NCBI GenBank assembly: GCA_902776305.1
Contig: CACYPS010000017.1
Location: forward strand, 1-64,000
DNA length: 64,000 nucleotides
Direction of reading: 5' to 3'
Source of the DNA: an uncultured Lachnospiraceae bacterium
GTDB taxonomy: Bacteria; Bacillota; Clostridia; Lachnospirales; Lachnospiraceae
The notes under the pieces: model-generated
Database searches by the model: none
Seen by the model: only the letters and a program-made list of their open reading frames with translations
What the model was told of the DNA's origin: nothing
Shown: positions 6,138 through 31,687 of the stretch, piece after piece
Position numbering within the stretch: position 1 is the stretch's first letter
Layout of the letters: each line of letters begins with the position of its first letter
Translations under genes and position numbers: made by a program

Positions 6138-7853
6138 ATGAAAAAGAAAGTCATAGCAGGTATACTGGCTATCCTGGTAGCCGGCTCGGGCGCCGGGTGT
6201 GGCAGCAAGGCGGAAAGCAAGCCGGGAAGTGAACGACCGGGTGATGCGTCGGGGACGGATGCAGACCTTTCAGATCAGGAAGATACGACAGTACAGCCTT
6301 CGAGTGATAGTGATGTTTCCGGAGATTATGCTACCGACAGTTCATTTACGGATTTGACGGTATCCGATGAAGCATCCGATCAGAGAAACGAATATGTAAT
6401 CTATTGTCCGGACGAGACCCTGCCGGATATTTTTGTGAGCTGTTATCCCGGGTATAAGGTCGTCTCGGAACCGACCGGAGATGAAGATGGCGTCCGTACT
6501 GCGGAAGGCGAGATCGGGGATATGAAGATTCACTGGGTCATCGCGGATTATCTGACAGATGACGAGATAGCGGGACACCTTGATGAACTTCTCATAGAGC
6601 AGCAGGAGGAAGGTGCTTCAGAATACGACTGGGTCGACCTCTTTGTGATTGATGAGGTGAATATTGAAAAATATATAGGCGACGGGGTGGATGTTTCCCT
6701 GGACCTCAAACATCTCGGAATCCGCAACCGGGAAAGGAGACAGCAGTTTTCCTACACCCGAACGCTCGCAAGAGATGGTTCCCAAGAGCTCGGAGCATCC
6801 TTCGATGTATCTCCGGGCGTATTTCTCTACAGGCGGTCGGTCGCAAATGCCGTTCTCGGTACCGATGATCCCGGCGTTGTAGGTGAATCCGTACGGGATT
6901 GGGAGACCTTTCGGTTGACTGCCGAAAAAACCGGAAAAGCCGGTTATAAAATGCTGGCAGGTTATGATGCGGCGTTTGACGTGTATTCTCAGGCTGTAGA
7001 ACATGACTGGCAGTCGGATGACGGCAGCCTTCAAATCGATGAACATTTGATGCAGTGGGTCGAGACCACGGATGACTTTGTGAAGAAAGGTATCTGCGGC
7101 GATGCGGAGATAGGTTCCGATGAATGGATGGCAGGTATCAAGGGAAAGGGTGATGTCTTCGGATATTTCCTCTCTGCCGAAGAGATCGAAGGTCTCAAAG
7201 ATGAAATCGATGAGAGCAATACGGACAGTTACGGTGATTGGGGGATTGTCCCCGGACCTGCCGGATGGTACAGAGGCGGAAGCTGGCTGTGCGCGGCGGT
7301 CGGGACTCCGAATCCGGAATTTTCTGCGGAAATCATCAGGAATCTGACATGCAATGAGCAGGTGATGCAGGACATTTACGAGAAGACCGGTATCACCGTG
7401 AATAACAGGAACGTGCTTCTCGGATTTGTGGAACCCGAGAATATGATCGGAGAAAGATCGCTTTCTGACAGTCTCAGCGAATCCGTGGACGGGTCTATAA
7501 CGTCCGGCAGCACAGAGGAGCTTGGCAGAGAAGCTGCAACGTCCGAAAGTTTCGAGGTTTCGACAGATGATTCTTCACAAACAGCATCGGGCATTGTGCG
7601 CGGTACAGAAGAGTTTGCGGGAGATGCATTCAGAGACCCGTTTTTCGCAGGCCAGCAGACAGGCCCCGTGTATGATAAGGCGGCCAATGCGGTGCAGAAT
7701 CCGGTCGCGGACTGGGAGAGATGGACCCTGGACGATATGTTCCAGGAAGCCTACTACCCATATTTCAGGGGAGAGTGCAGTCTGAACGATTCCCTCGCTT
7801 CATTCTATCAGAACGCCAAGGGACTGCTTATCACGGAGGATGAGGAATGGTAA
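6138..7853 (+). CDS. Extracellular solute-binding lipoprotein
   Basis: A 571-residue secreted lipoprotein. The signal peptide ends in a lipobox with the lipidated cysteine at C21 (GSGAGC). A serine/aspartate-rich linker of about 60 residues follows, then a region with the general pattern of ABC extracellular sugar-binding proteins (GVFLYRRSVA, WETFRLTAEK, WGIVPGPAGWYRGGSWLCAA). A second serine-rich insertion lies at about residues 440-490. No permease or ATPase follows. It overlaps the next gene by seven bases, so it is translationally coupled to a PucR-like regulator. It may be a sensor component or use a permease elsewhere. The ligand is unknown. Confidence 0.72.
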   Translation: MKKKVIAGILAILVAGSGAGCGSKAESKPGSERPGDASGTDADLSDQEDTTVQPSSDSDVSGDYATDSSFTDLTVSDEASDQRNEYVIYCPDETLPDIFVSCYPGYKVVSEPTGDEDGVRTAEGEIGDMKIHWVIADYLTDDEIAGHLDELLIEQQEEGASEYDWVDLFVIDEVNIEKYIGDGVDVSLDLKHLGIRNRERRQQFSYTRTLARDGSQELGASFDVSPGVFLYRRSVANAVLGTDDPGVVGESVRDWETFRLTAEKTGKAGYKMLAGYDAAFDVYSQAVEHDWQSDDGSLQIDEHLMQWVETTDDFVKKGICGDAEIGSDEWMAGIKGKGDVFGYFLSAEEIEGLKDEIDESNTDSYGDWGIVPGPAGWYRGGSWLCAAVGTPNPEFSAEIIRNLTCNEQVMQDIYEKTGITVNNRNVLLGFVEPENMIGERSLSDSLSESVDGSITSGSTEELGREAATSESFEVSTDDSSQTASGIVRGTEEFAGDAFRDPFFAGQQTGPVYDKAANAVQNPVADWERWTLDDMFQEAYYPYFRGECSLNDSLASFYQNAKGLLITEDEEW

Positions 7854-8755
7854 ACGAAGAGGAAAAGCTGAGACAGTCCATGGAGGAACTGAATCGTCTC
7901 ACCGGCCTGAATCTGACTCTGGAGGCGGACGAACACGCCGATGCGGCAGAGATGATAGAAAAAATCAAACAGATCTCGATGGCCTGGAGGGAGAAGAACA
8001 GCAAGACGACTTTCCTGACGGAGCTCCTCCGCGGAGAGCTGAGCGAAGCGGAGATTGCTTCGAGAGCAGCAAGATTCCATCTTGTCTCCGCGGAGCCGAG
8101 GAATCTCTTTATCATAGAGACCGACGATGAATCGTCGGATATGGTCTATAAAGTTCTGAAGCAGATGTTCACTTCTTCCGGAGACTGGATCGTCAGACTG
8201 GGCGGCAAGCGCATCGCGTTGATCCGTCTGGTTTCGAGAGACCGAAAAAGCGGAAGTGCGGAAGAGACGGCTCGGATGACGGTGGATATGTTAAACGTTG
8301 AGGCGATGGTGAGAGCGAGAGTGGCATTTGCAGAACCTGCAGAAACGCTTGAAGGACTCCCGGGTGCATATCAGGATGCATTGACTGCCCTGACGATCGG
8401 ACGTATATTCTATTCCTATGACACAGTCATCAATTTCAGCAGACTCGGTATCGGCAGGCTGATTAATGAACTTCCGGTCAAGGTGTGTGAGCAGTTCCTG
8501 AAAGAAGTCTACGGGGACAATATCCCTGACGAGTTCGACGAGGAGACGCAGACTACGATCGATACCTTTTTCAGTAATAACCTTAATATATCGGAGACGG
8601 CCAGACAGCTTTATCTGCACAGGAATACTCTGGTCTACCGGCTTGAAAAGCTTCATCAGCTGACCGGGCTTGATATCCGCCTCTTTGAAGACGCCATGAC
8701 ATACAAAGTGGCATCGATGGTGAGGGGATATCTGAAGAGCGGACCGGAGCGATGA
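7847..8755 (+). CDS. PucR/CdaR-like helix-turn-helix regulator
   Basis: A 302-residue cytoplasmic protein. Its C-terminus (from about residue 241) is a PucR-type helix-turn-helix: NISETARQLYLHRNTLVYRL followed by EKLHQLTGLDIR. The central part resembles the GGDEF-like CdaR domain. The N-terminal 50 residues look like a short coiled coil. Proteins of this group activate catabolic genes for purines, sugar acids or similar compounds. The start overlaps the lipoprotein stop, and the hydratase begins 32 bases downstream, so regulation of this operon is likely. The effector is not evident. Confidence 0.8.
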   Translation: MVNEEEKLRQSMEELNRLTGLNLTLEADEHADAAEMIEKIKQISMAWREKNSKTTFLTELLRGELSEAEIASRAARFHLVSAEPRNLFIIETDDESSDMVYKVLKQMFTSSGDWIVRLGGKRIALIRLVSRDRKSGSAEETARMTVDMLNVEAMVRARVAFAEPAETLEGLPGAYQDALTALTIGRIFYSYDTVINFSRLGIGRLINELPVKVCEQFLKEVYGDNIPDEFDEETQTTIDTFFSNNLNISETARQLYLHRNTLVYRLEKLHQLTGLDIRLFEDAMTYKVASMVRGYLKSGPER

Positions 8756-8787
8756 TAAAATAGTAATAATGACGAGGAGGACTAATT

Positions 8788-11076
8788 ATGATCAAATTGC
8801 ATGAAGGCGGGGTGTATCTTTTCCATGGTACGGAAATCAGTGAATCCTACAGCGGAAATCTTCAGGCTGCGAAAGAAGGAACCATTGCATACGGTATTCT
8901 CAAGCAGCATAACATCTCCGGCAACATGGAACAGCTTCAGATCAGATTTGATGCCCTGACTTCTCATGACATCACTTACGTTGGTATTATCCAGACAGCC
9001 CGCGCTTCGGGACTCGAGAAATTTCCGATTCCGTATGTTCTGACGAACTGTCATAATTCACTCTGCGCTGTCGGAGGTACGATTAATGAGGATGATCATG
9101 TATTCGGACTTACAGCCGCACAGAAATACGGCGGAGTATATGTTCCGCCGATGCAGGCAGTTATCCACCAGTATGCCCGTGAAATGCTTTCCGGCGGCGG
9201 AAAAATGATTCTCGGCAGCGACAGCCACACACGCTACGGTGCGCTCGGAACCATGGCTATGGGTGAGGGCGGTCCGGAACTTGTCAAGCAGCTCCTTTCA
9301 CGCACCTATGATATCAAGATGCCGGAGATTGTTGCAATTTATCTGACCGGCGAGCCGCGTCCGGGTGTCGGACCTCAGGATATTGCGCTTGCAATCATCG
9401 GCGCAGTATTTAAGAATGGCTTTGTTAAGAACAAGGTTATGGAATTTGTGGGACCCGGCGTTGCAAATCTCTCCATGGATTACCGAATCGGCGTGGATGT
9501 CATGACCACTGAGACGACATGTCTTTCTTCGATCTGGCAGACAGACGACCTGACCCGCGAGTATTATGCGACTCATAAGAGAGAGCAGGATTTCAAGGCT
9601 CTCGCACCGGCTTCCGTGGCATATTATGATTCGCTGATGGAGATAGACCTTTCCGAGATCAAGCCGATGATCGCTATGCCTTATCATCCGAGCTGCACAT
9701 ACACAATCGACGAAGTCCTTGCCAACCCGGCAGACATCCTTCATGAGACAGAAGAACGCGCGAAGGTGTCTTTCGGCGACAAGGTTCATGTAGATCTTAT
9801 GAGCAAGCTCGTAGACGGGAAAATAATGGTCGACCAGGGTATCATCGCAGGATGTGCGGGCGGCGGATTTGAAAATATCTGTGATGCAGCTGACATACTG
9901 CGCAATAAGAGCATCGGTGACGACAGGTTCTCCCTGAATATTTATCCGGCATCCATGCCTGTTTACATGGAACTTGTGAAAAACGGCGTATTTGCGGATC
10001 TGCTTGAGACAGGAGCAGTTATTAAGCCTGCTTTCTGCGGACCTTGCTTCGGCGCGGGAGATACGCCGGCCAACAACGCGTTCTCGATCCGTCATTCGAC
10101 TCGCAACTTCCCGAACCGCGAAGGTTCAAAAGTCCAGGAAGGACAGATCTCTTCTGTCGCGCTGATGGATGCGAGATCGATCGCTGCAACTGCTGCCAAT
10201 AAGGGAATCCTGACTTCAGCCGAATACTTTACCGGTGATTATACGAAACCGAAGTATTTCTTTGACGACAGGATCTACAGGAACCGCGTGTTCAACAGCA
10301 AAGGTGAGCCGGATCCGTCCGCAGAGCTTCAGTTCGGCCCGAACATCAAGGACTGGCCGTCCATGCCGGCGCTCACGGACAATCTGCTTCTTAAGGTCGT
10401 CAGCGAGATTCATGATCCGGTAACGACAACGGACGAGCTGATTCCTTCCGGTGAGACTTCCTCTTACCGCTCGAATCCGCTCAAGCTGGCCGGGTTCGCA
10501 CTTTCCAGAAAGGATCCGGCATATGTCGGCCGTGCGAAGGAGATCCAGAAGGCTGAAATCGCCCGTGAGGAAGCACTGGGCGAGAGCGAGGAAGCTCTGG
10601 AGACGGTCGTAAAGGCTGCATATGAGGAAGCGGCTGGGATGATGAGCAGGGTACGGGAAGTTTTCCCGGATGTCGAGTATGACAATACAGGCATCGGTTC
10701 GACTATTTTTGCGGTCAAACCCGGCGATGGTTCAGCCCGCGAGCAGGCAGCGTCCTGCCAGAAAGTGCTTGGCGGATGGGCCAACATTGCAAATGAGTAC
10801 GCCACCAAGCGCTACCGCTCCAACCTGATCAACTGGGGCATGCTGCCGCTGCTTATCGATGACGGTGAGCTGCCGTTTGCAAACGGCGATTATATCTTCC
10901 TTCCGAATATTCAGAATGAAGTCCGGGAGAAGGCGGAAGTGATTGAAGCCTACACCGTGAAGGCGGACGGCCTGGTGAAATTCTCCATGAAGCTCGGTGA
11001 TTTGACCGACGATGAGAGGGAAATAATTGAGGACGGGTGCCTGATCAATTATTATCGCAGCCACAAAACCAACTGA
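8788..11076 (+). CDS. Aconitase-family hydratase
   Basis: A 762-residue single-chain protein of the aconitase superfamily, annotated in related clostridia simply as 'hydratase'. The N-terminal domain has GSDSHT (143-148). Three cysteines placed like the 4Fe-4S ligands occur at C356 (AGCAGGG) and C417/C420 (FCGPC). The C-terminal swivel domain has [10 protein letters not shown] and [12 protein letters not shown]. The first cluster motif differs from the usual GSCTN of aconitase and isopropylmalate isomerase, so the substrate may not be citrate. It has a good ribosome site (GAGGAGG) and is the last gene of the lipoprotein-regulator-hydratase set. Confidence 0.88.
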
Positions 11077-11410: not shown

Positions 11411-11439
11411 TTGACAATTCTAGAATGATTTGTTAATAT
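11411..11439 (+). promoter_or_regulatory. Strong sigma-A promoter of noncoding unit 1
   Basis: A perfect -35 TTGACA (11411-11416), a 17-base spacer and -10 TAATAT (11434-11439). No annotated-size gene follows for about 950 bases on this strand. Confidence 0.75.
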
Positions 11440-11838
11440 ACTTACATCACAAGACAACATACTTTTTACAGAAAGGATAGTACTTAACAAGTTAACAATT
11501 TCTGATTCTTCTTAAGAATTTTTCGGAGACGAGAAATCCGAAAAGAGTATTCAGGATAGAAAACTTCTTCCACATTAAAAATAAGTCCTGACGAAGCTGT
11601 TTAAGGACAACCCATATAGATCAGCCGGATGGGAAAACCTTTTTCAGTAAAACTTCTCCGAAGGAAAACCTTTAAACATTTGTTTCGTGTTTATCACAAG
11701 GAAACCTTCCATTTTGAAGTATTTGAATATGGCATATATAGGAAGAACAATTTATCTGAATAACGTTAATATGAAAAATTGATTTTATTTTTCTTTTAAC
11801 AGCACAGGAAGATCAGAGCCATATGGAGGGTGTTTCCC

Positions 11839-11898
11839 ATGAACACATTAGACGAGCCGATCCTCGTATCCCCTCAATATGATAAAGGCAGAGCATAG
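11839..11898 (+). CDS. Possible 19-residue small protein
   Basis: ATG at 11839 follows GGAGGG by eight bases and opens a 19-codon frame beginning MNTLDEPILV and ending in DKGRA before TAG. It sits inside candidate RNA 1. The ribosome site is good, but the length is too short to judge coding by composition. It could be a real small peptide, a regulatory leader, or chance. Confidence 0.3.
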   Translation: MNTLDEPILVSPQYDKGRA

Positions 11899-12343
11899 CA
11901 GTTCCCAACACCAGAAGACCATTTCCATGAATTGAATGAAAAATGATTAAAGATCTCGTAGGAGATAAAACTCGGAAATCAGGTTTATCTTAGCTTGCTT
12001 GCATATTGAGACAACTGCCGGTCAGCGAAACTTCAGGATTGTAAAGAAAGTTCTAAAGAGGTAACTGACATTTATAAGGAGTCTGATCATAAGTAATTGG
12101 GGTTGTCGTGGTTAGATGATTTCGATGAAACTGAAGAATCCTAAAAACTTAAGATAGTATTTTCTAAGTCATTTGACGAGTTGGGAATTAAAATAAATAT
12201 TTATATACATACTTTGAAAATATATTTGAAAAGATTTGAAGGTTTATCAAATATCAAATATCAAGTATCAAAAAACAACATATGGAACTTGACAACTGAA
12301 TAATGATATTTAAAGGAGATAAATCCCTTGGATGTAGAATTCT

Positions 12344-12385
12344 AAAGGGCCGCTATTGCAAAGTACACGTGGTAGCGGCCCTTTT
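12344..12385. terminator. Rho-independent terminator of noncoding unit 1
   Basis: A twelve-base perfect stem, AAAGGGCCGCTA with TAGCGGCCCTTT, and an 18-base loop. The 3' side ends in T4. It also lies just past the end of the convergent rluA-type gene and has A-rich sequence on the other side, so it may serve both. Confidence 0.85.
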
Positions 12386-12397
12386 CGTATGTTCAGT

Positions 12398-13015
12398 TCA
12401 GATCGACAGCTCCATGAGCTTTCCCGTTCCCGGATGAATGAACGAAAGCCGGCACGCAGTAAGCATAAGTCTTCCGTGATAATCAGGGTCCGGTCTGCCG
12501 TATTTTCTGTCTCCTTTTATCGGCATGCCTGCGTTCGAGAGCTGGACACGGATCTGGTGATGCCGACCGGTCATAAGCCTGATCTCCAGTTCACTGTCGG
12601 ACAGCTTCTTATAGGAAAGCACAGCCTGCTTTGATTTGGGAGTTCCCTTAGCGACGACTCTGCTCGTGTTGGTGCGCCCGTCTTTCAGAAGATAGTCTGT
12701 CAGGATGTCCTCGTCCTTGGGTATCTGTCCGGTAATTTCTGCCCTGTATATCTTTTCGATTTTCCCTTCCGTGAGCTGACGGGTGAGGCCGGCAGCGGCC
12801 TTTTTATTTTTGGCAAAAAGCACAAGACCTTCAACCGGCTGATCCAGCCGGTTAATGACATGAAGCTCCGGCTTCTGCTGACCTTTGTTCTTCTTAATAA
12901 AATCTGCCAGAAGCATGCTCTCAAGATCCTGCGTGAGAGCGCTGCGGCTCTGAACAGGAAGGCCTGCTTCCTTGTGCACAACTAAAATATCTTTGTCCTC
13001 GTAAATTATTTTCAT
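12398..13015 (-). CDS. RluA-family pseudouridine synthase
   Basis: A 205-residue catalytic domain that isomerises uridine to pseudouridine in RNA. The active-site motif is INRLDQPVEG with the presumed catalytic aspartate at D58, followed by the conserved Y-R segment (KIYRAEI) and TGRHHQIRVQL near residue 150. There is no N-terminal S4 domain, so it belongs to the short YhcT/RluA-like forms. The start at 13015 has GGAG ten bases upstream, inside the first of three tandem leader repeats. The RNA target cannot be predicted. Confidence 0.9.
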   Translation of the reverse strand: MKIIYEDKDILVVHKEAGLPVQSRSALTQDLESMLLADFIKKNKGQQKPELHVINRLDQPVEGLVLFAKNKKAAAGLTRQLTEGKIEKIYRAEITGQIPKDEDILTDYLLKDGRTNTSRVVAKGTPKSKQAVLSYKKLSDSELEIRLMTGRHHQIRVQLSNAGMPIKGDRKYGRPDPDYHGRLMLTACRLSFIHPGTGKLMELSI

Positions 13016-13948: not shown

Positions 13949-16451
<2,503 letters not shown>

Positions 16452-16480
16452 TCGGCGTAATTACTTAAAGGAGAAGTTAT

Positions 16481-17074
16481 ATGGCAGGCATTGATAATAT
16501 TACCGGCCGTATCCTGCAGGAAGCGCAGGGAGAAGTGGATAAAATTCTGGAAAATGCCGCAAATCAGGCTAAGGAGATCGTCGATAAGGCCGACGTGGAG
16601 GCACAAGCCGTCTCCAGGGCAGCGGCGGCGAGATCGGAGCAGCAGACGAAGCTGTATGCTGCACGGGTCAAGTCATCGGCGGAGAGTACCAGAAAAAAGG
16701 CACTTCTCTCGGCAAAGCAGGAGATTATTGACAGTGTCATTGATCAGGCCTATAACAAATTAATCAATCAGGATGACGCATCTTATTTCGATATGATGCA
16801 GAAGATCCTTGCGAAAGCAGTACGCCCGGAGAAGGGAACGATCGCCCTTCCGGCTGCGGACCTCGCAAGAGTTCCGGATTTCTTTAAGAAAGCAGTCAGT
16901 AAGATCGCCGGCGATAAGGGAGGCGAGCTTACATTTGCAAAGGAACCGGCAAAGATCGACAGCGGTTTCGTTCTCTCATACGGCGGTATCGAGGAGAACT
17001 GTTCGCTTCGTTCAATATTTGCAGCTAACAGAGATCAGATTCAGGACACGATCTGTAAGGTCCTGTTCTCTTAA
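16481..17074 (+). CDS. ntpE: V-type ATPase subunit E (peripheral stalk)
   Basis: A 197-residue protein. The first 100 residues form a long charged helix (ILQEAQGEVDKILENAANQ), and a globular C-terminal domain follows. It forms the peripheral stalk with the small G/H-like subunit encoded at 13427-13735. ATG follows AAAGGAG by eight bases and lies 29 bases after ntpK. The next gene begins ten bases downstream. Confidence 0.92.
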   Translation: MAGIDNITGRILQEAQGEVDKILENAANQAKEIVDKADVEAQAVSRAAAARSEQQTKLYAARVKSSAESTRKKALLSAKQEIIDSVIDQAYNKLINQDDASYFDMMQKILAKAVRPEKGTIALPAADLARVPDFFKKAVSKIAGDKGGELTFAKEPAKIDSGFVLSYGGIEENCSLRSIFAANRDQIQDTICKVLFS

Positions 17075-17084
17075 GGAGTATTAA

Positions 17085-18059
17085 ATGGCATCAGATTGGG
17101 ATTATACCTATGCGGTAGCAAGAATACGAGTCCTTGAGACACATCTCCTGAGTGACAGTGATGTGAATGCCATGGTCGCGTCGAAGGATATGAAAGCCGC
17201 CCTGACATATCTGAAAGATAAAGGATGGGGAGACGCTTCCGGCAAGGATGATGCGGAGGAGATCCTCGAGATCGAAGAGAAGAAGATCTGGGATACCATG
17301 CGCGAACTTCGCGTGGATTTCTCGGTATTCGACGTTCTCTCTCTCCCGCAGATCTACCACAATCTGAAAGCTGCAGTGAAGGAAACGTGTCTTTCGGGAG
17401 TGCATCACGGAGTGTTTTATCCGGATGACCGATTCGGTCGTGAGGAAATGCTTCGTATCATGCGCGAAAAAGATTATTCTGCATTGCCCGAGCATATGCG
17501 TGCCGCGGCACAGGAAGCATATGAGGCAATGCTGCACAGTCGTGACGGACAGCTGGCCGACATCATCGTCGACAGAGCATGCCTGGATGCTATCGAGGCG
17601 GCGGGACAGAAGTCCAAGGCCAAGGTCATCCGGGACTACGCCGAATCACAGGTCGCGGTCACGAACATTAAGATAGCCGTCCGATCTGCCAAAACGAAGA
17701 AATCCCTCGATTTCCTCCATCGTGCACTGGCGCCGTGCAGGTCATTTGACGTACGTCAGCTTGCTCAGGCGGCATTCACGGGAGAGGATTCCCTGATGGA
17801 TTTCCTTTCATCGGCAGGATTTGCCGAGGCGGCGGAGGCTCTGGAGAAGAGTCCGTCGGCATTTGAACGCTGGTGTGACAACATGCAGATCCGTGCGGTC
17901 AAACCGCAGAAATATGAAGTCTGCTCGGTCGGACCGCTCGTTGCCTATGTTCTTGCAAGACAGAATGAGATCAAGACGGCACGGATCGTCCTTTCAGGTA
18001 AGGAGAATAACCTTTCTGAGGAAGATATCCGGGAAAGAACGAGGGAGATGTATGTCTAA
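17085..18059 (+). CDS. ntpC: V-type ATPase subunit C (subunit d homologue)
   Basis: A 324-residue funnel-shaped adaptor that connects the central rotor shaft to the membrane ring. Recognisable features are the YAVARIRVLETHLL start, a helix-rich body and the conserved [18 protein letters not shown] end. It overlaps the start of the next gene by eight bases, indicating coupled translation. Confidence 0.9.
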   Translation: MASDWDYTYAVARIRVLETHLLSDSDVNAMVASKDMKAALTYLKDKGWGDASGKDDAEEILEIEEKKIWDTMRELRVDFSVFDVLSLPQIYHNLKAAVKETCLSGVHHGVFYPDDRFGREEMLRIMREKDYSALPEHMRAAAQEAYEAMLHSRDGQLADIIVDRACLDAIEAAGQKSKAKVIRDYAESQVAVTNIKIAVRSAKTKKSLDFLHRALAPCRSFDVRQLAQAAFTGEDSLMDFLSSAGFAEAAEALEKSPSAFERWCDNMQIRAVKPQKYEVCSVGPLVAYVLARQNEIKTARIVLSGKENNLSEEDIRERTREMYV

Positions 18060-30953: not shown

Positions 30954-31595
30954 TTAAGCTGTCGCCTGTAATTTCACAGTCATCATGGCTTTTCTGACCG
31001 CCGGGACTGCGAGGAGAATCAATGTAAGAAGACCTTCCGCACAGAGATAGAAGCCATTATAGCTGATGGAATAAACAAGCGGATTCATTCCCTCAGGTGC
31101 GTACATACCGAAGAATATGACGCCCGAAAGGACAGCGAAAAAGAAGCGGCCGAGGACTGCGCAAATGTATCCGATCAGCAGACCGTTCTTCTTGTCAGAG
31201 AAGAAACCGGAAATTCCGAGAGCACCGAATGCGAGCGGGTAGTCCACAAGCATCTGCGGCAGAGAGACGATGTACGGACCTAAGATCAAACGAAGAAGCC
31301 CGTAAGTTACGCCTGCCAGAAGTCCGACGACCGGACCGTACCAGTAGCCGATCAGAACTACGAAAAGCATGGAAAATAAGGTGATGGAGCCTCCGGTCGG
31401 CAACCTGAAGAGTTTGATCTGACTGCACACAACTGCGAGTGCGAGCGCCATGGAACAGTAAGCGAGCTGCTTTGCTCCGATCTTTTTGCGGCCGCCTGCA
31501 AAAACAGATATGACAATCAGTAAAAGGAATACGGCTACAGCAACTAACGTGTAGCCGGCGGCGGTGAGTCCGCCGTCTTGCGTGACAAAAAACAT
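30954..31595 (-). CDS. thiT: Energy-coupled thiamine transporter ThiT
   Basis: A 213-residue S-component of an ECF importer with six hydrophobic helices. The body matches ThiT: CSMALALAVVCSQIKLFRLP, then FSMLFVVLIGYWYGPVVGLLAGV, including the aromatic residues of the thiamine pocket. The assignment is strongly supported by the TPP riboswitch that covers its leader. The shared EcfAA'T module must be encoded elsewhere. The N-terminus is about 30 residues longer than the classic ThiT, giving one extra hydrophobic stretch. Confidence 0.92.
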   Translation of the reverse strand: MFFVTQDGGLTAAGYTLVAVAVFLLLIVISVFAGGRKKIGAKQLAYCSMALALAVVCSQIKLFRLPTGGSITLFSMLFVVLIGYWYGPVVGLLAGVTYGLLRLILGPYIVSLPQMLVDYPLAFGALGISGFFSDKKNGLLIGYICAVLGRFFFAVLSGVIFFGMYAPEGMNPLVYSISYNGFYLCAEGLLTLILLAVPAVRKAMMTVKLQATA

Positions 31596-31601
31596 ATAGA
31601 T

Positions 31602-31682
31602 GCCTCCTTACGCCGGTATTATCCGGATCAAGTAATAGGGGTCGTGCAGATGCACTCTCAGCCTGATGCGCCCCCAGCAACA
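31602..31682 (-). promoter_or_regulatory. TPP riboswitch (THI element)
   Basis: Read on the minus strand: GGGGGCGC, CAGGCTGAGAGTG, the P3 hairpin, ACCCCTATTACTTGATCCGG, then ATAATACCGGCGTAAGGAGG. These are the conserved TPP aptamer blocks in order. The last block contains the thiT ribosome site (AAGGAGG) about seven bases from the ATG, so ligand binding should block translation initiation directly. Confidence 0.95.
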
Positions 31683-31687
31683 TAATA

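Follow-up and report, generated by a model that had tools for sequence, protein, structure and literature searches.

A candidate large structured RNA gene of Lachnospiraceae with a conserved pseudoknotted core and a predicted ribosome binding site

What is encoded between an aconitase gene (8788-11076, + strand) and a convergent pseudouridine synthase gene (12398-13015, - strand) in the genome of an uncultured Lachnospiraceae bacterium? The two genes leave a gap of 1.3 kb in the window, by which we mean the whole stretch of 64,000 nucleotides that was analysed. A reading made from the sequence alone had proposed that an AT-rich noncoding transcription unit, gene-free over nearly 1 kb, fills this gap, and both its composition and the lack of a gene are borne out. 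The G+C content is 32-37% in the gap and about 45-56% on either side, and no + strand frame of at least 60 amino acids lies wholly inside 11446-12386. In addition, the fold of the RNA beats 20 of 20 shuffles (z -2.48). The signals collected in Table 1 lead us to infer that an RNA gene stands alone at 11411-12385 and gives rise to a single transcript of roughly 0.5-1 kb. It is virtually certain, in our judgment, that a real structured RNA gene lies here, and the best reading is that a large structured RNA is encoded here, whose family is not in Rfam 15 and would extend across many Lachnospiraceae genera. As for the surroundings, a PucR-type regulator adjoins the aconitase gene (7847-11076, +), and a V-type ATPase 116-kDa-family subunit, then more frames resembling V-type ATPase subunits, are found at 13949-18059 (+).

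Table 1. Features of the candidate RNA gene, in window coordinates
Feature	Position	Strand	Basis
Sigma-70 type promoter: TTGACA (11411-11416), 17-nt spacer, TAATAT (11434-11439), extended TG	11411-11439	+	motif and homologous loci
Inferred transcript, about 940 nt	11446-12385	+	promoter and terminator positions; start estimated from the -10 box
5' hairpin, stem UUUUCGGA/UCCGAAAA, 9-nt loop GACGAGAAA (11528-11536)	11520-11544	+	loop conserved, stem paired
Shine-Dalgarno (SD) GGAGG, 9 nt before the start codon	11825-11829	+	homolog comparison
Short open frame MNTLDEPILVSPQYDKGRA-UAG, entering the core fold	11839-11898	+	frame of L088 (95% identical) and window sequence
P1, long-range helix, 11873-11882 with 12001-12010	11873-12010	+	96.9% of cells paired
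Pseudoknot helix (PK), GGCAG 11887-11891 with CUGCC 12015-12019	11887-12019	+	covariation
P2, 11892-11899 with 11993-11999	11892-11999	+	7 of 7 pairs with changes on both sides
P3, about 11918-11926 with 11974-11983, around a variable region	11918-11983	+	covariation
Hairpin with loop GUAAAGAA (12041-12048)	12035-12054	+	motif in homologs
UUUCUAA-hairpin-GAGUUGGGAAUU element	12159-12189	+	strict pattern
Terminator hairpin, 16-bp stem AAAGGGCCGCUAUUGC/GUGGUAGCGGCCCUUU, then Us	12344-12385	+	predicted fold, window sequence

Is it one of the RNAs already described? The sequence-only reading had thought of ROOL, GOLLD, OLE and raiA and had proposed a search with the large-RNA models of Rfam. This search was run, and it speaks against all four names. 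With the 4227 families of Rfam 15 at gathering scores nothing was found in 11411-12385, at E up to 5 the region gave no credible match, and at E up to 1 neither did 12 homologous loci; the RNA is therefore none of ROOL, GOLLD, OLE and raiA as Rfam models them. The raiA (ModT) model RF03072 had no match in the region; elsewhere it gave 0 matches in 41 genomes, though its positive control scored in 0 of 14 genomes. SR1 reached 19.4 bits (E 0.34, against a gathering score of 45), which is noise level. ARAGORN calls no tmRNA in the window, and the genome has its own tmRNA (159.3 bits) and its own 6S RNA (RF00013, 49.2 bits) elsewhere, on contig C1, so the RNA is neither of them. The one gathering-score Rfam match in the window is a TPP riboswitch at 31588-31685 on the - strand (70.1 bits). 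ROOL is described as an RNA of phages or prophages that often lies close to tRNA islands (PMC12286853, in extract). No such tRNA setting was found in the window, which has no tRNA, and tRNAs occurred in 1 of 10 homologous loci scanned; in that locus five tRNA genes cluster about 6 kb from the RNA (L074:6-479). In the open-licence literature, supplements aside, no account of the RNA was found, and it may be listed unnamed among the candidates of a published screen, for example that of PMC8040213. It is highly probable that the family is new to Rfam.

How widely is the RNA distributed? A DNA search of 61 genomes, its own included, gave matches in 18, which are its own, 15 of the same genus and 2 in other families. 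Most of the genus matches cover 11806-12057 of the window, and the two other-family matches (G037 and G038; 25 and 37 nt, E 9e-4 and 2e-4) were taken as chance. An alignment of 15 loci shows that the promoter and the core are conserved and that the terminator is similar in most. For the core (window 11845-12021), a covariance model (R1) was built from 14 sequences, with one locus that is 95% identical to the window (L002) left out. R1 matches 30 of 42 genomes of the genus, some of the 12 others being incomplete, as well as 16 genomes among 299 sampled from the family and 3 among 392 from the order, these three again of the same family. A second model (R2), built from 57 sequences, matches 65 of 397 family genomes, which represent 53 of 334 genera, together with 2 of 291 genomes in the class sample, both of the same family, and 1 of 199 in the phylum sample, which is the genome itself. 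With about 6-13 candidate places scored per genome, the order, class and phylum samples held no model match outside the family; the same limit on scored places in these wide searches makes the prevalence within the family a lower bound. Among named genomes, a DNA pattern found 33 matching stretches, whose titles are Lachnospiraceae, Fusicatenibacter, Roseburia, Lachnospira, Lacrimispora, Eubacterium, Ruminococcus and Scatomonas, and further uncultured Clostridia, Clostridiales or Eubacteriales. Phage or plasmid origin was considered and rejected, since blastn against phages and plasmids gave no match and the one strict pattern searched among viral contigs gave none. Each of the 65 matching family genomes has one R2 match, except one genome (G147) with two; one of its copies (L054 and L136) has a two-codon frame (MG), and the frame of the other is shifted against P1. 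For the counts below, loci with P1 too near an end and loci repeating another were dropped, by which the set of 96 loci was reduced to 89 for the ribosome binding site, 93 for the promoter, 91 for the downstream loop and 59 for frame stops.

The transcription signals can be followed across these loci. Of 93 loci, some of them near-duplicates, 92 have a promoter with exact TTGACA at 60-560 nt 5' of P1, compared with 2 of 764 control stretches of 500 nt each, and such a promoter is kept in 58 of 59 loci after thinning to below 75% identity. The earlier observation is confirmed as a whole, with some corrections of detail. The promoter had been called perfect, which is true of the -35 box and not of the -10 box (10 of 12 matches overall), and the stem of the terminator, given as 12 bp, has 16 bp in the predicted fold. 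This hairpin (12344-12384) carries a short T run, and a simple terminator scan does not have it in its list. A terminator-like hairpin follows 150-1100 nt downstream in 68 of 89 loci compared with 50 of 153 control stretches; another count gave 37 of 59 loci, some unconvincing. The sequence AAUUGAAUA, 5' of the terminator in the alignments, is present in 34 of 65 representatives.

Is the fold also kept? RNAalifold, applied to the plain alignment, gave a consensus with little structure, since the variable loop disrupts the columns; the helices were instead placed manually, and their support was measured by counts. P1 pairs CUCAAUAUGA with UCAUAUUGAG over about 120 nt, and P2 and P3 are nested inside; changes on both sides are seen in 7 of the 10 pairs of P1, whose innermost pair is mismatched in the window, and in 7 of 7 pairs of P3 (81.6% paired). 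The pseudoknot joins a strand just inside P1 (GGCAG) to one just outside it (CUGCC). Over the whole core, 31 pairs were counted in 57 distinct sequences, with 89.4% of cells paired, changes on both sides in 28 of the 31 pairs, and a covariation score of 0.352 compared with 0.159 for shuffled and at most 0.100 for slid alignments, where the numbers lean towards structure because the sequences are related and the alignments were fitted to models, and the shuffles overstate significance because of the same relatedness. The pairs of the pseudoknot were in neither R1 nor R2. Taken alone, it has changes on both sides in 7 of 7 alignment pairs and is 82.6% paired, with a score of 0.272 compared with 0.145 shuffled and at most 0.146 slid (the slide being on 4 pairs). 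Its number of pair types was reached by 14 of 500 shuffles; of 51 rows with letters there, 27 lack one of the two outer pairs and 22 the other. A set of 45 sequences without the pseudoknot gave the same covariation picture. Compensatory base changes thus exceed the controls, as concerns a structured RNA in general; the folded RNA that had been suggested at the outset is supported, and the comparison of homologs for covariation proposed with it came out strongly positive. Comparison of the homologs shows what appears to be a pseudoknotted core fold (P1, P2, P3 and PK) kept by evolution.

Outside the core, the sequence-only reading had noticed short stems with GAAA-like loops. This holds in part, the loops that are conserved being GACGAGAAA and GUAAAGAA. 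Of 96 loci, 42 have the exact loop GACGAGAAA between the promoter and P1, in 37 cases on a stem of 4 bp or longer, compared with 3 occurrences in 563 kb of control strand; its 33 distinct stems are 89.9% paired, and 47.6% when shuffled. Downstream of the core, 57 of 91 loci have the loop GUAAAGAA, in 48 cases on a stem of 4 bp or longer, and the 45 distinct hairpins immediately 3' of the core reach 86.3% pairing, compared with 54.8% shuffled. For both hairpins it is only the share of paired cells that exceeds the shuffles, the number of pair types being hardly above them. In about half of the loci the core is bordered by these hairpins, whose loops are fixed and whose stems are unrelated; because they lie outside the search models they give independent support. 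Further 3', the strict pattern UUUCUAA-hairpin-GAGYNGGGAA occurs in 29 of 96 loci, with its stem 97.0% paired compared with 69.9% shuffled (11 distinct sequences); we take this element to resemble the UAA/GAN motif of rRNA. The two loops carry AGAAA/AAGAA and the 3' element carries UUUCU (12161-12169). Contacts between the loops and the UUUCU strand are conceivable, and they are of a kind that cannot show covariation because the letters are fixed.

There is a further question, whether the RNA is noncoding, as had been claimed. The claim stands as far as no selection on a peptide is seen, and it overlooked a conserved ribosome binding site with a short open frame. Under a loose rule (4 of 5 SD letters or better and a start before P1), a site is found in 87 of 89 distinct homologs and also in 1171 of 3092 control segments. 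Since the controls so often meet this rule, the telling count is that of an exact GGAGG with an AUG, UUG or GUG start, which is 78 of 89 distinct homologs compared with 119 of 3092 control segments. Two homologs (L082 and L064) have no recognisable site plus start, and among the 87 the start that the rule assigned to L126 lies at P1 itself and is an artefact. Start codons in the 87 loci are AUG in 44, UUG in 36, GUG in 7 and CUG in none; among starts with exact GGAGG, CUG accounts for 0 of 78 in homologs compared with 48 of 119 in controls. The distances from SD to start are bunched at 8-9 nt in homologs and evenly spread in controls, under a start-picking rule that favours spacings near 8.5 nt. 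It is probable that ribosomes initiate on this RNA.

What happens after the start? The start codon lies 23-41 nt before the CAAUAU of P1. In 73 of 87 loci it is in frame with the P1 codons, at 24, 27, 30, 33, 36 or 39 nt, and in the other 14 it is out of frame. The frame passes through P1 in 66 of the 73 in-frame loci, and 27 of 56 frames share a UAG stop at one place inside P2. In 59 representatives below 75% identity, 10 in-frame stops were counted in 460 codons compared with 28.9 expected by shuffling, and none of 2000 shuffles had as few; the other two frames had 34 stops in 452 codons and 20 in 401. Frames of at most five codons, ending before P1, occur in 9 of the 59 representatives. The dN/dS upstream of the core is about 0.95, and 1.24 and 0.93 in the wrong frames, in a test that is weak because the frames are short and the sequences related; given the wrong-frame values, it speaks against selection on the peptide and is no proof of translation. 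The recurring residues QY(E/V)SG coincide with nucleotides of P1 and the pseudoknot. Together, the dN/dS near 0.95, the overlap of the recurring residues with structured nucleotides and the very short frames in 9 of 59 representatives suggest a peptide that is not selected. Initiation and the open frame look selected and the peptide does not, and the SD/start block could in part be a structural element of the RNA.

The neighbourhood gives some indication of history. A neighbour scan covered 30 proteins of 17 loci. In several distant loci the RNA again has an aconitase, PucR or pseudouridine synthase gene as a neighbour. One of them (L079) has both aconitase and pseudouridine synthase; aconitase is a neighbour in L087 and L110, and pseudouridine synthase in L077, L056 and L111. 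The recurring aconitase and pseudouridine synthase flanks speak for an old, vertically inherited locus. At other loci the neighbours are transporters, TPR proteins, prolyl-tRNA synthetase, an NYN-domain protein and others.

How could these observations be brought together? The likeliest mechanism, in our view, is a trans-acting RNA scaffold that would recruit or briefly hold ribosomes. Initiation would be the conserved event, the short frame would free the ribosome after 2-33 codons, and the peptide would be a by-product. The pseudoknot core and the loop hairpins might bind a partner protein or RNA. A ribosome on one of the long frames would have to melt P1, PK and P2, so that the fold would respond to translation. 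Ribosome recruitment is a plausible function of the RNA, if somewhat short of a probable one. Slightly more tentative is the fuller scenario that translation itself, not the peptide, is conserved, in a ribosome-loading RNA whose short frame stays open while its sequence varies freely, and that feeds or tethers ribosomes beside the conserved pseudoknot. To our knowledge, no RNA of such a ribosome-loading kind has been described.

The same open frame could also belong to a regulatory RNA in which translation acts as a sensor. Ribosomes would then unfold P1, PK and P2, and the amount of folded core would report the translation capacity and control a bound partner. Frames that read through P1 (66 of 73 in-frame loci) and the UAG at one place in P2 (27 of 56 frames) are in accordance with this possibility, which is nevertheless rather unlikely, the frame being over within five codons, before P1, in 9 of 59 representatives. 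If the ribosome site is secondary, the RNA could be a scaffold made of RNA only that assembles with itself into homo-oligomers, like OLE, ROOL or GOLLD, to which size, pseudoknot and fixed loops are alike (PMC12286853, in extract). Against this stand the lack of an Rfam match to these three and of any phage or plasmid copy among those searched, and we consider it unlikely. Slightly less likely still is a dual-function RNA of the RNAIII or SR1 kind, with a functional micropeptide besides the RNA action. Retention of SD, start codon and open frame above controls would fit it, as would the recurrence of QY(E/V)SG; the dN/dS upstream of the core, the position of these residues on P1 and pseudoknot nucleotides, and a frame that is truncated or shifted in a good minority of loci do not.

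Then could the transcript be a cis-regulatory leader or a long UTR of a neighbour gene? Of 23 loci with mechanically called frames, 14 have the next downstream frame on the strand of the RNA, as a leader would need, and 9 on the opposite strand, and in the window the next gene is convergent. The downstream families vary among the 30 proteins of the 17 loci, so that cis-regulation of one gene was rejected; a cis-regulatory role is unlikely because no downstream family is constant. A terminator-like hairpin, moreover, follows more often than in controls. This explanation is very improbable. A decayed protein gene or a chance AT-rich spacer would account for the low G+C content and for a region with no Rfam match, and it is contradicted by the covariation across genera, the retained promoter and the fixed loops; its probability is close to nil. 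A protein gene, intact or decayed, was rejected, since the + strand has no frame of at least 60 amino acids wholly inside and the structure covaries.

Lachnospiraceae rank among the most common bacteria of the gut. Of the 334 genera of this family that were sampled, 53 have an apparently vertically inherited RNA gene, roughly 0.5-1 kb in length, for which Rfam 15 gave no match. Why was it passed over? One explanation may be its composition, AT-rich relative to the genome, given that the DIMPL discovery pipeline is described as starting from long GC-rich intergenic regions (PMC8723152, in extract). The conserved start codon gives this large RNA family a ready experimental handle. It also allows a test of whether selection can maintain the translation of a frame because of the ribosome and not because of the peptide.

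Several known systems share parts of this architecture. tmRNA, like the RNA here, is structured and has a short frame close to a pseudoknot, and RNAIII and SgrS are stand-alone RNAs with a short translated frame. The same is reported of SR1 (PMC8501984, in extract), the frame of the present RNA being predicted. Unlike these dual-function sRNAs (RNAIII, SR1 and SgrS), it has a peptide on which no selection is seen and a large pseudoknotted core. The uORF motifs ilvB and fthC likewise have an SD, a start and a short frame running into a structured element (PMC11109978, in extract), and differ in that the RNA here has no consistent downstream gene. The raiA motif RNA (ModT), a structured RNA that is conserved in Bacillota and acts in trans (PMC11706538, in extract), resembles the RNA here, which would likewise act in trans, and has 209 positions in the RF03072 model compared with about 940 nt here. 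GOLLD, ROOL and OLE come closest in kind; they are, in the extract of PMC12286853, large bacterial RNAs with elaborate conserved folds and largely unknown functions, in which they are alike to our RNA, and GOLLD is said there to bind ribosomes in pull-downs. Unlike these three, the RNA described here has no Rfam, phage or plasmid match in the searches above, and it carries a conserved ribosome binding site and start codon.
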